The notes beneath the pieces were generated by a model. The model searched no databases. It was given only the letters and a program-made list of their open reading frames with translations, and had not been told where the DNA came from. Both the position numbers and the translations under genes were made by a program. A stretch of 58,098 nucleotides of DNA from the NCBI GenBank assembly GCA_020351995.1, contig CP070674.1, forward strand, positions 1,859,219 through 1,917,316. The letters are read 5' to 3'. Shown here piece after piece: positions 52,590 through 58,098 of the stretch. Position 1 is the stretch's first letter. Each line of letters opens with the position of its first letter. Origin of the DNA: Candidatus Zixiibacteriota bacterium. GTDB lineage: Bacteria > Zixibacteria > MSB-5A5 > GN15 > FEB-12.

Positions 52590-54101
52590 ATGATGGGTCT
52601 TAACCCTGAAGAAGTATCATCGGTATTAAAGCGAGAAATTGAAAAATACGAATCCAAGCTGGAGATGGAATCGGTCGGGACCGTTCTCCAGGTTGGCGAT
52701 GGTATCGCGCGTATATGGGGTCTTGAAGATGTCCAGATGTCGGAGCTTATTCAATTCCCCGGTGACATAATGGGACTGGTGCTGAACCTCGAAGAGGACA
52801 ACGTTGGTGCGGCCATCTTCGGCTCCGATACGGAGATAAACGAAGGAGACACCGTTCGCAGAACGGGCAAGGTGGCCTCGGTGCCGGTGGGTGATGCCCT
52901 GATTGGCCGGGTGGTCAATCCTTTGGGTCAACCGCTGGACGGTAAGGGTCCCATTGTTACCGATAAATATCGGGTTATCGAGGGACGGGCACCCAGTGTC
53001 GTGGAACGTCAGCCCGTGAATGAGCCGCTTCAGACCGGTCTGAAAGCCATCGATTCTATGATTCCGATCGGCCGGGGACAGCGTGAGCTCATTATCGGTG
53101 ACCGCCAGACAGGTAAAACTGCGCTGGCCATCGACACGATTATCAATCAGAAGGATACCGACGTTATTTGCATCTACGTGGCTGTCGGGCAGAAAGCCTC
53201 TACCGTGGCCCAGGTCGTGGAGACCCTGCGCAAGCATGGTGCCATGGAATACACGACCGTGGTGTCGGCTACCGCGACCGACCCGGCCCCCCTTCAGTAT
53301 ATCGCTCCATACGCTGGCTGCGCGATGGGCGAGGAAATCCGTGACAACGGCGGGCACGTTGTGTGCATTTATGACGACCTGTCCAAGCAGGCGGCGTCGT
53401 ATCGCCAATTGTCTCTGCTTCTGAGACGTCCGCCGGGACGTGAAGCCTATCCGGGAGACATCTTTTACTGCCATTCGCGTCTTCTGGAAAGAGCCGCTAA
53501 ACTCTCCGACAAAAGAGGCGGCGGTTCACTGACGGCACTTCCGATTATCGAGACCCAGGCAGGTGACGTTTCGGCGTATATCCCCACCAACGTGATTTCG
53601 ATTACCGATGGTCAGATATTCCTTGAGTCGGAGCTATTCTTTGCCGGTATCCGCCCAGCGATTAACGTGGGTATTTCGGTTTCGCGCGTGGGCGGTAACG
53701 CTCAGGTGAAGATGATGCGCCAGGTAGCCGGGTCGCTCAAGCTGGATCTGGCCCAGTATCGCGAGCTGGCGGCGTTTACCCAATTTGGCTCGGATCTCGA
53801 TGAAGCTACCCAGAAACAACTTAACCGGGGTGAGAAGATGGTCGAGCTGCTCAAGCAGGGACAGTATGTTCCCATGCCGGTAGCCTACCAGGTCATGGTC
53901 ATCTGGGCCGGCACGAACGAATATCTGGATGACATTCCGACCGAGGCCATCGGCCGGTTCGAGGAAGGGTTTATCAAGTACTGTGAGAAGAACTATCCGG
54001 ATATAGACCATACCCTGGAGCAGGAGAAGATAATCTCGGAGGAAACCGAGGCGAAGTTAAAGTCTGCCGTAGAGGAGTTCAAGAGGCAATTTAAGCCGTG
54101 A
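52590..54101 (+). CDS. atpA: ATP synthase F1 subunit alpha
   Basis: This 503-residue subunit forms the non-catalytic nucleotide sites of F1. Walker A is GDRQTGKT near residue 170, followed by the arginine-finger region [19 protein letters not shown] near 370 and the ATP synthase alpha/beta signature [11 protein letters not shown]. The length is standard. Start: an ATG-ATG pair at 52590 after AGGAG. Its last codons (ending Arg-Gln-Phe-Lys-Pro-stop) are echoed in vestigial form at 54854-54876, before the second beta-barrel gene. Confidence 0.97.
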
Positions 54102-54129: not shown

Positions 54130-54807
54130 ATGAATAGGAGTTGTCACGTATTGAAGCTGTTTCGGGGCTGCCTGGTCCTGCCGCTACTGGTGCTGCTGAC
54201 CGTTGGCGCTGAGGTCTCGAAGGCCGCCAAAGTCAGGCAGTTCGATGTTGGCTTGAGGGCGGGGCTGAGCTTGGCCAGCCTCGGTGGTGAAAACGGCGAT
54301 ATGTATGAAAATAGCCGTACCGGTCTTTTAGGTGGTGGGTTTGTCAGATACAGAGTGTCGAATCTGGTCTCGCTGGAAACCGACGTGTCCTACTTGAGGA
54401 AGGGCGGCAAGGGAGAGATGCTGGTCGCGGACTACAAGACGAATGAAATCACTACCGCAGAAAACGTACTGGTGCTCAACCGGGTGGTGGTTACTCCCGC
54501 ATTGGTCTTCACTCTGCCTGTTAAGGGACAGATTCGGCCTTCCCTGCTGGGAGGTGTGTCGGTTGCTTTTGCGGGTTCATCTCAGATTGAAGTTGAAGGA
54601 TTCGAGCCGGTTGATATATCCGAGTACACAAAAAGCACAATCGTGGGGTACGTAGTTGGCGTAGAGCTGGCTTACCACCTGGAGTCGACAAGAGTATTCA
54701 TTGATCTTCGCTATTCACGTGACACTGGCGATTTCTTTGAGCCGGAATCGTTTGAGTGGATAAGCCAAATCATGTCGATTGGCTTTGGCGTTGGGTTTGA
54801 GATCTAA
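54130..54807 (+). CDS. Outer-membrane beta-barrel protein 1 (porin-family, 8-stranded type)
   Basis: This 225-residue protein has a signal peptide (LVLPLLVLLTVGAEVSKA) and then a small barrel of alternating strands. It begins FDVGLRAGLSLASLGGENGD and includes LLGGGFVRYRVSNLVSLETD, LRKGGKGEM, RPSLLGGVSVAFAGSSQ and the last strand ending FGVGFEI with no aromatic terminal residue. This matches the OMP_b-brl_2/porin-family group. It lies 28 bases after atpA, before any terminator, so it is probably co-transcribed with the ATP synthase. It is most similar to barrel 2. No substrate can be named. Confidence 0.8.
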   Translation: MNRSCHVLKLFRGCLVLPLLVLLTVGAEVSKAAKVRQFDVGLRAGLSLASLGGENGDMYENSRTGLLGGGFVRYRVSNLVSLETDVSYLRKGGKGEMLVADYKTNEITTAENVLVLNRVVVTPALVFTLPVKGQIRPSLLGGVSVAFAGSSQIEVEGFEPVDISEYTKSTIVGYVVGVELAYHLESTRVFIDLRYSRDTGDFFEPESFEWISQIMSIGFGVGFEI

Positions 54808-54840
54808 TGGCGTTTTGTTATGACAGGGATCCAGCGACGA

Positions 54841-54917
54841 GAGGAAGGGTTTTAGAAGCAATTTAAGCCATGATTGACCCACCTCGATACGGATCAGGCA
54901 AGTGGAGGGAAGAACAG
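54841..54917 (+). repeat. Vestige of the atpA 3' end and leader, duplicated before barrel 2
   Basis: Bases 54854-54876 match 54082-54104 (the last atpA codons, stop and following bases) at 21 of 23 positions. The ribosome-site segment before the ATG at 54918 (GGAGGGAAGAACAGATGA) also resembles that before 54130 (GGAGGGGAAATACAGATGA). The block was evidently copied together with the barrel gene; the part between is diverged. Confidence 0.7.
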
Positions 54918-55601
54918 ATGAGAAGGAACAAAACATTAATCAAGCTTCTGAGCGGTTGCGTGATCTTATCGCTTGTGTTGGCATGCGCCGCAAGCGCCCG
55001 GACACCGGAGGGCAAACGATTCGAAGTCGGCCTCAGGGGCGGGCTTGCCGTGGGCAGCATCGAGGGTGAGGAGAGCTACCTCTGGGAAAAGTCAAGGACG
55101 GGCTTTCTCGGCAGTGCCTTCGCGCGTTATGCGGTAGCCGATTTGATTTCTCTTGAAATGAACGTCGGCTACGTAATGAAAGGGGGCAAGACGGATATCC
55201 CGCTTACCGACTATACGGAGGGGGCAGAGCCCGGTGAGATAAGCGGGTATGTACAAGCCACGCTTATCTCGGACCGTGTTGAGATGGTTCCCGTGGTAGC
55301 GGTCACTGTTCCTGTCCATGAGAAGATTAGACCTGCAATTCTGGGCGGGATATCATTGGCCTTTGCCGGCTCATCAAAGGCCAAGTTGGACGACTACGAC
55401 CCTTATGACTTGTCTGAGGCTACCACCAGCACTAATTGGGGATTCGTGGTCGGAGCGGAAGTGGCCTATCAGTTTGAGTCGGCCAGAGTCTTCGCAGATA
55501 TCAGATATTCGCGTGACTTTGGCGATTTTCACGAATCGGACCTGCTTGAGTGGATTAACGAGGTTGTATCGATAGGCGTGGGGATCGGGTTTAAACTATA
55601 G
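54918..55601 (+). CDS. Outer-membrane beta-barrel protein 2
   Basis: This protein of about 227 residues has a signal peptide (LIKLLSGCVILSLVLACAASA) and a small barrel. It is closely related to barrel 1: FEVGLRGGLAVGSIEGEES, then SRTGFLGSAFARYAVADLIS, VMKGGKTDIPL, RPAILGGISLAFAGSSKA, RVFADIRYSRDFGDFHESD and the last strand ending IGVGIGFKL. The ATG at 54918 follows GGAGGGAAGAAC; an in-frame ATG at 54870 has no such site and lies in the atpA vestige. The protein probably arose by tandem duplication with barrel 1. Confidence 0.8.
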   Translation: MRRNKTLIKLLSGCVILSLVLACAASARTPEGKRFEVGLRGGLAVGSIEGEESYLWEKSRTGFLGSAFARYAVADLISLEMNVGYVMKGGKTDIPLTDYTEGAEPGEISGYVQATLISDRVEMVPVVAVTVPVHEKIRPAILGGISLAFAGSSKAKLDDYDPYDLSEATTSTNWGFVVGAEVAYQFESARVFADIRYSRDFGDFHESDLLEWINEVVSIGVGIGFKL

Positions 55602-55669: not shown

Positions 55670-56380
55670 ATGAGACGCGCCTTAACAATTCGGAGAATCG
55701 GCTTTGTTGTCTTATTGACGGTCGCCGCGGTGCTGGTCTGTTCCGTTGTCTCGGCGCAGTCACCGGCCAAGTTGATGGGGCAAAATTTCGAGTTTGGCGT
55801 CAGAGGCGGTATCAGTTGGGCCGAGCTTGTGCATGAGAATTCCTTTTCGGGCATTGACAGCCGCATGACCTTTTCTGTGGGCGGGTTCTGGGCTTTTCCT
55901 GTATCGTCGCGTTTCGCCCTTCAACCGGAGCTGACATATAAGCGCTACGGGCACTCGTACTATGTAGTATACACAACAGAGGACTATCCGGACGGTTACG
56001 CCGAAGGCGTGTTCAGTCGTAAGCTGGACTACGTCGCAATCAGCTCGATGGTGCGGTTTCAGCCTTTGAATCGGGGGATACTGTTGCCTTTCCTTCTGGC
56101 CGGTCCCCGTCTTGATGTCAAGGTCCGTGCCGAACAAGGTCTTGAGGACGACTACTATGACATACACACTGCCAAGAAAGCGACCTTCGGGCTCGATTTC
56201 GGCGGGATGCTGGTCTTAAATCTCGAAACACCAATATTTATCGACATAAGGGGTTCGCTTGGCCTGACAGAGGCTTTTGATATACACGGTTTCCGGATGG
56301 ATGGCACGACAATAGAAGCGGTGGAGCTGAATGTGAAAGGCAACATGCTTTCGATAACAGCGGGATTCATTTTCATGTAG
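55670..56380 (+). CDS. Outer-membrane beta-barrel protein 3
   Basis: This 236-residue protein has a signal peptide (IGFVVLLTVAAVLVCSVVSAQS) and a small barrel: FEFGVRGGISWAELVHENSF, then VGGFWAFPVSSRFALQPELT, LDYVAISSMVRFQPL, LLAGPRLDVKVRAEQ, LETPIFIDIRGSLGLTEAFD, ending SITAGFIFM. It is more like barrel 4 than barrels 1 and 2, so the array consists of two sub-pairs. GTGAGGAGTAACAAAGT supplies the ribosome site. The 68 bases before it may hold a trace of the atpG 3' end (weak). Confidence 0.78.
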   Translation: MRRALTIRRIGFVVLLTVAAVLVCSVVSAQSPAKLMGQNFEFGVRGGISWAELVHENSFSGIDSRMTFSVGGFWAFPVSSRFALQPELTYKRYGHSYYVVYTTEDYPDGYAEGVFSRKLDYVAISSMVRFQPLNRGILLPFLLAGPRLDVKVRAEQGLEDDYYDIHTAKKATFGLDFGGMLVLNLETPIFIDIRGSLGLTEAFDIHGFRMDGTTIEAVELNVKGNMLSITAGFIFM

Positions 56381-56427
56381 GGCAGAGTAGGCAGGTAAGG
56401 ACCTGAAAGAAGATATTATAGACGGAT

Positions 56428-57162
56428 ATGCCGACACTTAGAGAGGTAAAAAAGCGAATTAGGACGCTCGAGTCAACCAGGCGCATCGCCAAGACTGTGG
56501 GGATGGTCATGGTGGTGATTCTGCTGTCAATTTCGGTCAGCAATGCTCAGGCACCTGACCGTGTAGTTAACCAGAAGCTGGAAATCGGTCTTAGGGGTGG
56601 CGTAAGTTGGGCTAGATTTGTCGGACAGGATAATAATCCGAATGCCGATCCACGAAAAGGGTTTACTCTGGGGGGTTACGCCAGGATCCCTATTTCCTCT
56701 CGGTTCTCTCTTCAACCCGATGTAGCTTACACGCAAAAAGGGGAGAGCGTTGTGGTTATTATTCCAGACGATTTCGAGGAAATAGCACTTAGCTTTGAGG
56801 TTGACTATATCGATATCGCGTCGCTCATCAGCTTAGATTTTGGCTGGAAATGGAATGTTCAACCTTCTCTGTTAGTGGGGCCGTGGCTGGCATTTAATGT
56901 TAATTCACAGAGAGGAGCCGGCATAAGCATACCGAATGTGAATACTTCATGGGGTTTGGTTTTCGGCGGTCGCGCCCGAATCGGTGCGGACAGACTTGGC
57001 TTCATTTTCGACGTAAGATATTCACTGGGATTGTCAGATGCATTCAAGAATGATGACGACTGGACGCCGGATGATTTTGACCCCGACAACCCGGGAATAC
57101 CATTGAATCTGGATGTCAAAACTAATGCTCTGTTGGTCACTCTGGGATTGGCGATCTGGTGA
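56428..57162 (+). CDS. Outer-membrane beta-barrel protein 4 with an AtpG-derived N-terminus (chimera)
   Basis: This 244-residue protein begins MPTLREVKKRIRTLESTRRI, almost exactly the start of AtpG (57205). Of the first 27 residues 21 are identical, and codons 1-22 agree at 57 of 66 bases. From residue 26 it changes to a hydrophobic stretch (MVMVVILLSISVSNAQA), so the AtpG segment serves as a long basic n-region of a signal peptide. A barrel follows: LEIGLRGGVSWARFVGQDNN, VGGKT-like strands, SSRFSLQPDVAYTQKGES, PSLLVGPWLAFNV and ending LVTLGLAIW. It resembles barrel 3. Internal ATGs at residues 26 and 28 lack a ribosome site and would remove all positive charges. Its start could mislead annotation into calling it an ATP synthase gamma subunit. 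Confidence 0.85.
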   Translation: MPTLREVKKRIRTLESTRRIAKTVGMVMVVILLSISVSNAQAPDRVVNQKLEIGLRGGVSWARFVGQDNNPNADPRKGFTLGGYARIPISSRFSLQPDVAYTQKGESVVVIIPDDFEEIALSFEVDYIDIASLISLDFGWKWNVQPSLLVGPWLAFNVNSQRGAGISIPNVNTSWGLVFGGRARIGADRLGFIFDVRYSLGLSDAFKNDDDWTPDDFDPDNPGIPLNLDVKTNALLVTLGLAIW

Positions 57163-57204
57163 GTAACAGATTAGTAAGTGTTATTATTAGCATGAACGGA
57201 ATAT

Positions 57205-58074
57205 ATGCCAACACTTAGAGAAGTAAAAAAACGAATTCGGACGGTCGAGTCGACCAAGCGTATCACCAAGGCCATGGAAATGGTCGCGGCGGCGAACCTG
57301 CGCAGGGCCCAGCAGCGTGTCGAACAGTCACGCCCATACAACCGGGTTTTGGAGCAGCTGCTCAGTCACCTGGCGGCGGCGTCGACTGATGAGATCACGC
57401 ATCCGTTTTTCGAGGAACGCGAGATAAAGAAGAAGACGCTGGTGCTTATCACCTCCGACAGGGGTCTTTGCGGTTCGTATAACGGCAACGCTATCCGTCG
57501 GGCGGCCCAGTGGCTAAGAGAGAACGAAGAGTTCGAATGCGAGCTGGTCACTATCGGGAAGAAGGGCAACGATTTCTTCAAGCGTCGCAAGTGGCCGGTC
57601 GCGCAGTTCTACGGTGATTGGGGTGGATCTATCGACTACGAAAAAGCCAAGGAGATCGCCCGTTTTCTGACCTGGCGCTTTATTCATGGCGAGACGGACG
57701 AGATCAGTCTGTTATATACGGCCTTCATATCCACCGTGAGGTATCGTCTGTCGATTGATCGTTATCTGCCTGTGGCCCGACCCGAGGAAAAGGAAAAAGA
57801 AGTCGGCTACAACATTGATTATATCTTCGAGCCATCGGCCGAAGCCATATACAGCTCGATTCTGCCCAACTATACGACTTCAAAGTTAATAATCGCCCTT
57901 GCGGAATCGTTTGCGTCCGAGCACGGCAGCCGTATGATCGCCATGGGCAACGCGACTTCGAACGCCGAGGAGATGGTCGATACGTTGACCTTACAGTACA
58001 ATAAGGCCCGGCAGGCTCAGATTACCAAGGAATTGCTCGAGGTAGTATCCGGCGCCGAAGCGCTGAGCGGATAA
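57205..58074 (+). CDS. atpG: ATP synthase F1 subunit gamma
   Basis: This 289-residue central shaft subunit has the family start LREVKKRIRTVESTKRITKAMEMVAAANLRRAQ, and LVLITSDRGLCGSYNGN near residue 78. The C-terminal signature FASEHGSRMIAMGNATSNA is followed by the long helix AEEMVDTLTLQYNKARQAQI. Length and motifs are intact, so this is the working copy despite the AtpG-like head on the gene before it. It starts 42 bases after barrel 4, with a weak AACGGAATAT leader. atpD and atpC are expected downstream of the window. Confidence 0.97.
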   Translation: MPTLREVKKRIRTVESTKRITKAMEMVAAANLRRAQQRVEQSRPYNRVLEQLLSHLAAASTDEITHPFFEEREIKKKTLVLITSDRGLCGSYNGNAIRRAAQWLRENEEFECELVTIGKKGNDFFKRRKWPVAQFYGDWGGSIDYEKAKEIARFLTWRFIHGETDEISLLYTAFISTVRYRLSIDRYLPVARPEEKEKEVGYNIDYIFEPSAEAIYSSILPNYTTSKLIIALAESFASEHGSRMIAMGNATSNAEEMVDTLTLQYNKARQAQITKELLEVVSGAEALSG

Positions 58075-58098
58075 AAAGAATCTGAAAAAGAATATTTT

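Follow-up and report, generated by a model that had tools for sequence, protein, structure and literature searches.

The 5' end of a gene can move as a module onto other coding sequence. This process, called terminal reassortment, has been described for type III effectors (Stavrinides, Ma and Guttman 2006, cited in PMC7406222). The locus described here, in which a gene for an outer-membrane barrel opens with a copy of the start of atpG, resembles terminal reassortment, as outlined in that citation, in that a 5' end with initiation and targeting information fronts unrelated or paralogous coding sequence. It departs from the same outline in two ways. The type III modules come from a gene for a secreted effector, whereas here the donor encodes a subunit of ATP synthase that stays in the cytosol and has an N-terminus with no part in export; and this donor, atpG, lies directly downstream in the operon and remains intact.

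Chimeric genes made by partial tandem duplication are also similar: two adjacent genes each contain a breakpoint, both parents are kept and the junction is in frame. Unlike them, the barrels described here reuse the same donor end on several bodies, and do so in at least two genera, with heads that appear to recombine later. A third comparison is with integrative elements at host genes, for example those at prfC, which restore the 5' end of the host gene. Again a duplicated gene end flanks an insert and the host gene is intact, but here there is no recombinase and no fixed junction, and the insert is a single barrel gene.

The class of event is already known, as terminal reassortment. Neither an atpG-barrel fusion nor any ATP-synthase gene as a 5'-end donor was found in the open-access literature on insertions into atp operons, on chimeric genes, on signal peptides and on Zixibacteria.

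The b4 gene and its atpG-like start

The window is the whole stretch of Zixiibacteriota DNA that was analysed, of 58,098 nucleotides. The genome from which it comes is designated G000, and its sister species G003. In the ORF list, the window ends with a run of ATP-synthase genes in the order atpB, E, F, H and A, followed by four barrel ORFs (b1 to b4) and then atpG. The features are as follows.

52590 to 54101, plus strand: atpA (F1 alpha), from the ORF list; upstream boundary of the insertion site, and a single full-length copy in G000.
54130 to 54807, plus strand: b1, a headless outer-membrane barrel gene (Pfam OMP_b-brl), with a strong Shine-Dalgarno (SD) site GGAGGGG, duplex -10.0 kcal/mol.
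54870 to 55601, plus strand: b2, also headless and a barrel gene, in tandem with its paralog b1 (44% identity); it probably starts at the ATG at 54918.
55670 to 56380, plus strand: b3, a headless barrel gene, closest to b4 in the body tree, with an ordinary signal peptide (MRRALTIRRIGFVVLL...) and a GAGGAG SD site.
56381 to 56427, plus strand: b3-b4 spacer, resembling the b3-atpG spacer of G003 and not the b4-atpG spacer of the window (local alignments, 300 shuffles).
56428 to 56505, plus strand: AtpG-derived head of b4, codons 1-26, holding the start codon, an atpG-type initiation region and a basic n-region.
56506 to 56553, plus strand: hydrophobic core and c-region of the predicted b4 signal peptide, residues 27-42 (ending SNAQA), from hydropathy and the modelled helix 4-40.
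56554 to 57162, plus strand: predicted mature outer-membrane β-barrel of b4, eight strands (PF13568; AlphaFold2; Foldseek matches to OmpA, OmpW and OmpX).
57163 to 57204, plus strand: b4-atpG spacer, 42 nt, lacking a strong SD site in its sequence and conserved between both alleles.
57205 to 58074, plus strand: atpG, intact, 289 amino acids (PF00231, 331.7 bits), donor or twin of the head.

The first two barrel genes (54130-55601) form a tandem pair of their own, 44% identical and with ordinary SD sites.

The original prediction was that b4 opens with a diverged copy of the first 27 or so codons of atpG, in a frame that is open throughout, and continues as a hydrophobic signal sequence and a barrel. 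All of this was borne out. When the alignment was recomputed, b4 (from 56428) and atpG (from 57205) agreed over codons 1-22 at 57 of 66 bases and, as proteins, at 21 of 27 residues, and the b4 frame is open over 244 amino acids. There is no third copy of the atpG start on either strand of the 58 kb window, where no other place reaches 36 of 66, and chance similarity is thereby ruled out. A Pfam profile search gave no PF00231 match in b4, which has only about its first 26 residues in common with AtpG; among the headed barrels generally, the likeness is limited to the first 16-27 residues and there is no gamma-subunit body.

The sequence after the head is hydrophobic, with a mean hydropathy of 3.06 over the 11 residues 27-37, against a maximum of 1.05 in AtpG. 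The region before this core has a charge of +6, and AXA-type sites follow the core. Thus b4 has the features of a Sec signal peptide, namely a basic n-region, a hydrophobic core and small residues at -3 and -1, this call being made from hydropathy, charge and a check of the -3/-1 positions computed here. The headed barrels have a core hydropathy of at least 2.79 and an n-region charge of +3 to +7.

The remainder of b4 matches Pfam OMP_b-brl_2 (PF13568) with 50.4 bits, against a cut-off of 27. Its AlphaFold2 model (mean pLDDT 74) consists of one helix, residues 4-40, followed by eight strands, and the nearest PDB folds found with Foldseek are OmpA (E 9.5e-8) and OmpW (E 1.2e-5). The modelled body of b4 is a small eight-stranded barrel, predicted to be located in the outer membrane. 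Its mature part is an ordinary barrel like those of PF13568 and PF13505 (OmpA/OmpW-like small barrels), whose headless members here have n-regions of 4-12 residues, whereas those of the headed proteins are of 17-26 residues and of AtpG origin. The AtpG head is probably removed from b4 together with the signal peptide.

Headed and headless barrels in related genomes

The DNA upstream of atpG was compared in 60 stretches from 59 relatives. In this Zixiibacteriota family, barrel ORFs are often found between atpA and atpG, and almost all of them have ordinary signal peptides. About 20 of the 60 stretches (L081-L140) carry outer-membrane barrel genes 5' of atpG, with numbers ranging from none to five per operon.

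Related genomes were searched for further barrel genes with an atpG-like head, and these were found in a second genus, in the genomes G037, G015 and G049. In G037 there are three consecutive headed barrels, MATLREVKKRIRTVVS joined to ATCSIFLIATT, MATLREVKKRIRTVVST joined to LLVMVFVIGI, and MATLREVKKRIKTVVS joined to RLVFMVIVLTLL, followed by atpG itself, MATLREVKKRIKSVVSTRRITSAMEMV. The single headed barrel of G015 (MATLREVKKRIKTVVSTKRITSAMEM joined to FLTALVAFFLL) weakly matches PF00231 at its residues 3-26, and that of G049 is MATLREVNKTIRMVVS joined to RLILMVIVLTLL. The junction between head and barrel varies, falling at codons 16, 17, 16, 26 and about 27, and is always adjoined by the hydrophobic core. 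Headed genes are few in number. These three genomes belong to one genus, and their heads may share one capture.

A degenerate atpG-start pattern was run against 132 genomes of the class and phylum, and extra copies joined to barrels occurred only in G000, G037, G015 and G049. Pattern matches in G059, G105 and G017 proved to be second atpG copies rather than barrel heads, those in G059 and G105 lying near contig ends. There were no further heads in 142 scanned loci (most with atpG, other phyla included). As regards other phyla, 80 atpG loci of GTDB genomes had no head; these are mostly Firmicutes and Proteobacteria, in which barrel genes should be few. One headless barrel, in G019 (L120:4356-5042), starts with MATMRKIL, a faint likeness to MATLRE that may be an eroded head or chance.

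In a tree of the barrel bodies, the headed label needs 5 changes, of which at least 3 are forced by well-supported branches. The headed bodies, as placed by this tree, are not one clade: as in terminal reassortment, the same 5' head is found on several non-orthologous bodies. Headed b3 of G037 is sister to headless b1 of the same operon (100/98), and b4 of G000 is sister to the b3 clade (88/86). The two G037 genes can be compared at the junction, where the headless b1 has MKRLLST and then LLMFVVFFAIC, and the headed b3 has RTVVST and then LLVMVFVIGIC. This pair is a cleaner case of capture than b4 of the window. Both parents of the chimera can be identified, in the headless barrel relatives (b3, G037_b1 and G015_b1) and in an atpG donor that is intact.

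The original prediction regarded the same barrel without its head, in relatives, as evidence against the fusion. Such a pair exists. From alignment column 180 onward, G015_b1 and G049_b1 are the same barrel (90-100% identity per 60 columns); the headless G015_b1 starts M-RKLLLIL (MRKLLLILTVLTLVLASSSFGFDG), and G049_b1 carries an atpG head in front (MATLREVNKTIRMVVSRLILMVIVLTLLTASSSFGFDG). The first 120 or so columns of G049_b1 resemble G037_b4 instead of G015_b1, making the gene a mosaic. The pair means that a head was gained or swapped, and is not counted against the fusion.

The sister species has the order atpA-b3-atpG. Its b3-atpG spacer resembles the b3-b4 spacer of G000, with a score above that of every one of 300 shuffles. 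The b4-atpG spacer has no such resemblance, so that the b4 head occupies the position of the atpG start in G003. From the spacer sequences, either b4 arose at that position or G003 lost it, for example by recombination between two heads. Proteins b4 and b3 are 36% identical, and the b3 proteins of G000 and G003 64%. Local alignments found no similarity between the b3-b4 and b4-atpG spacers, where a young tandem duplication would show some. Given the 36% identity and the unlike spacers, the event in the window is old (with loss in G003), or the body of b4 came from elsewhere.

Start regions, alleles and alternative explanations

The atpG genes of this family usually lack a strong SD site (median -3.2 kcal/mol, 44 genes), and their starts are A-rich and weakly folded. 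Headed barrels have starts of this kind, whereas strong SD sites predominate among the headless barrels of the same site. The median SD energy is -2.8 kcal/mol for headed and -8.5 kcal/mol for headless barrels (P=0.014), and start-region folding is -2.4 against -8.2 (P=2e-4), both P values being optimistic because the genes compared are related. The weak SD sites and weak folding of the headed genes are in the direction predicted by capture of an atpG start.

In G000 the b3-b4-atpG segment is present twice, although atpA and atpD each occur once. The second b4 allele encodes a protein 86% identical to the first, with the same head, which is nearer to atpG in its DNA. The diverged copies (window 57205-58098 and L005:7680-10240) are at contig ends, and their atpG genes are 97% identical in protein and about 90% in DNA. 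Both G000 and G003 are pseudo-chromosomes, in which contigs are joined by 100-N runs. The window copy ends at such a join directly after atpG, and the other copy begins in the b2 tail, on the far side of an N join, and continues into atpD and atpC. The two have in common only short exact words at their ends, like the arms of an assembly bubble, and G003 is split likewise. They are probably population alleles; a tandem duplication is possible. Two further observations concern these joins: an apparent DnaK-AtpG fusion ORF in G003 (L083:4347-5798) was rejected, as it arises from a run of 100 N that joins contigs within both genes, and L006:9775-17917, past a 100-N join, encodes large proteins that look secreted and contain repeats of a dockerin-like motif of the LDLDNWIEWML type.

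Four other explanations of the head were weighed, together with one of the signal core. The head could be a transcribed but untranslated leader, with the true start at an internal methionine, and b4 does have ATG codons at positions 26 and 28, just before and in the hydrophobic core. Starting there would leave no basic n-region, however, and in G037 the next start codons fall inside the core, so that an internal start would cut it. The frame of the head also stays open, with a dN/dS of 0.24 between the G000 alleles. We regard an untranslated leader as improbable.

It is slightly less probable again that the segment is kept for a function as protein, for example as a gamma-subunit helix, released or held in the membrane, that binds F1 or couples the levels of ATP synthase and outer-membrane protein. 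Its persistent likeness to AtpG, low dN/dS and place within the ATP-synthase operon would fit such a role. Its length is not constant, at 16-27 residues, and the predicted signal peptide implies that it is removed. Moreover the G000 heads carry P2I, E15G, A23T and M24V, which are absent from their own AtpG, and the dN/dS of the b4 head between alleles (0.24) is well above that of the atpG head (0) and the rest of atpG (0.03), the barrel body being at 0.15.

A site-specific recombinase that inserts barrel cassettes at the 5' end of atpG and restores atpG is very unlikely. Each headed barrel does resemble an insert, with the 5' end of atpG before it and a complete atpG after it, and the G003 spacer fits an empty site, but the scatter of the junctions listed above leaves no constant core site. 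No recombinase gene lies between atpA and atpG, where the sizeable ORFs, in the window and in the relatives' loci, are all barrels, and the headed genes are related to headless genes of the same operon.

We also considered whether the whole signal core of b4 came from AtpG by point mutations (GCG GCG GCG to GTG GTG GTG). Over codons 27-34, about half of the b4 bases are still those of atpG, but b3 accounts for the core equally well. Finally, an assembly or binning artefact fusing atpG reads to a barrel gene, to which the 100-N joins in G000 and G003 and the presence of two alleles might point, can be set aside, because several distinct junctions occur in separate assemblies (four genomes, two genera), within continuous sequence and with many differences between head and atpG.

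Proposed origin and its consequences

The best reading is the one given in the original prediction, that an exported barrel captured the 5' end of atpG, translation start included, and uses it as its own start and n-region: heads recur, the initiation features are of the atpG type, and there are headless orthologs and paralogs. The recurrence, the kinship of headed genes with headless barrels of their own operon and the apparent recombination of heads go beyond what that prediction foresaw. We consider it likely that b4 is an atpG-headed chimeric barrel made by duplication or template switching, which uses the atpG start and has the head as a removable n-region. The duplication step, translation from the head, its cleavage and any benefit are what we infer, in the following manner. 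Tandem duplication or template switching would have had its breakpoints in the signal sequence of a barrel and in codons 16-27 of the downstream atpG. The barrel would have lost its own start and n-region, and about 26 atpG codons, with their start and initiation region, would have been substituted. The product would have the order headless barrel, atpG-headed barrel, atpG, with atpG left intact. The hybrid would be translated from the atpG start, which is A-rich, unstructured and not reliant on a strong SD site. The basic AtpG segment would serve as a long n-region, probably removed by signal peptidase, in which case no AtpG sequence would reach the outer membrane. As direct repeats, the heads would probably then permit gene conversion, growth of the array, exchange of barrel bodies, and loss of barrels with no damage to atpG.

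Evidence for such recombination comes from G015_b2 and G037_b4, in a tract of 616 nt that extends from the barrel body across the spacer and into atpG. The two differ there at 8 positions, against a background identity of 85-92%. Five of the 8 mismatches fall within the 48 nt of the atpG head (P=1e-4 in a hypergeometric test, with tract limits set by eye after inspection). This suggests that the atpG head was converted by another head after a recent barrel exchange between G015 and G037; the evidence is good but not final, because there are only 8 mismatches and the limits were chosen by eye. More generally, the mosaic tracts suggest that heads recombine with each other and with atpG. The barrel tract at L119:4610-5225 and its L118 counterpart is essentially identical over about 500 bp and ends at the atpG start, in species that are 85-92% identical. 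Judged by this identity, a barrel within the ATP-synthase operon was recently exchanged between the two species by horizontal transfer.

A wider proposal, which we put forward tentatively and think somewhat doubtful, is that the 5' end of atpG acts both as a recombination seam and as a start. Successive barrels and atpG would each have a direct repeat of 48-80 bp at the front, and these repeats would let surface barrels be added, swapped, amplified and cleanly deleted inside an essential operon, each headed barrel coming under the translation start of ATP synthase. The known heads would then be snapshots of an active system of surface-protein diversification that has no dedicated recombinase.

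The finding implies that a single step is enough for a protein to gain its signal n-region and its translation start from a neighbouring housekeeping gene with a cytosolic product, and the states before and after capture of the head are kept in sister species. The locus also offers a natural test of SD-independent initiation, in that the same barrel is found behind its own strong SD site or behind an atpG start. If the head repeats are recombination seams, they would explain the fast turnover of surface proteins in the ATP-synthase operon of the uncultured phylum Zixiibacteriota.
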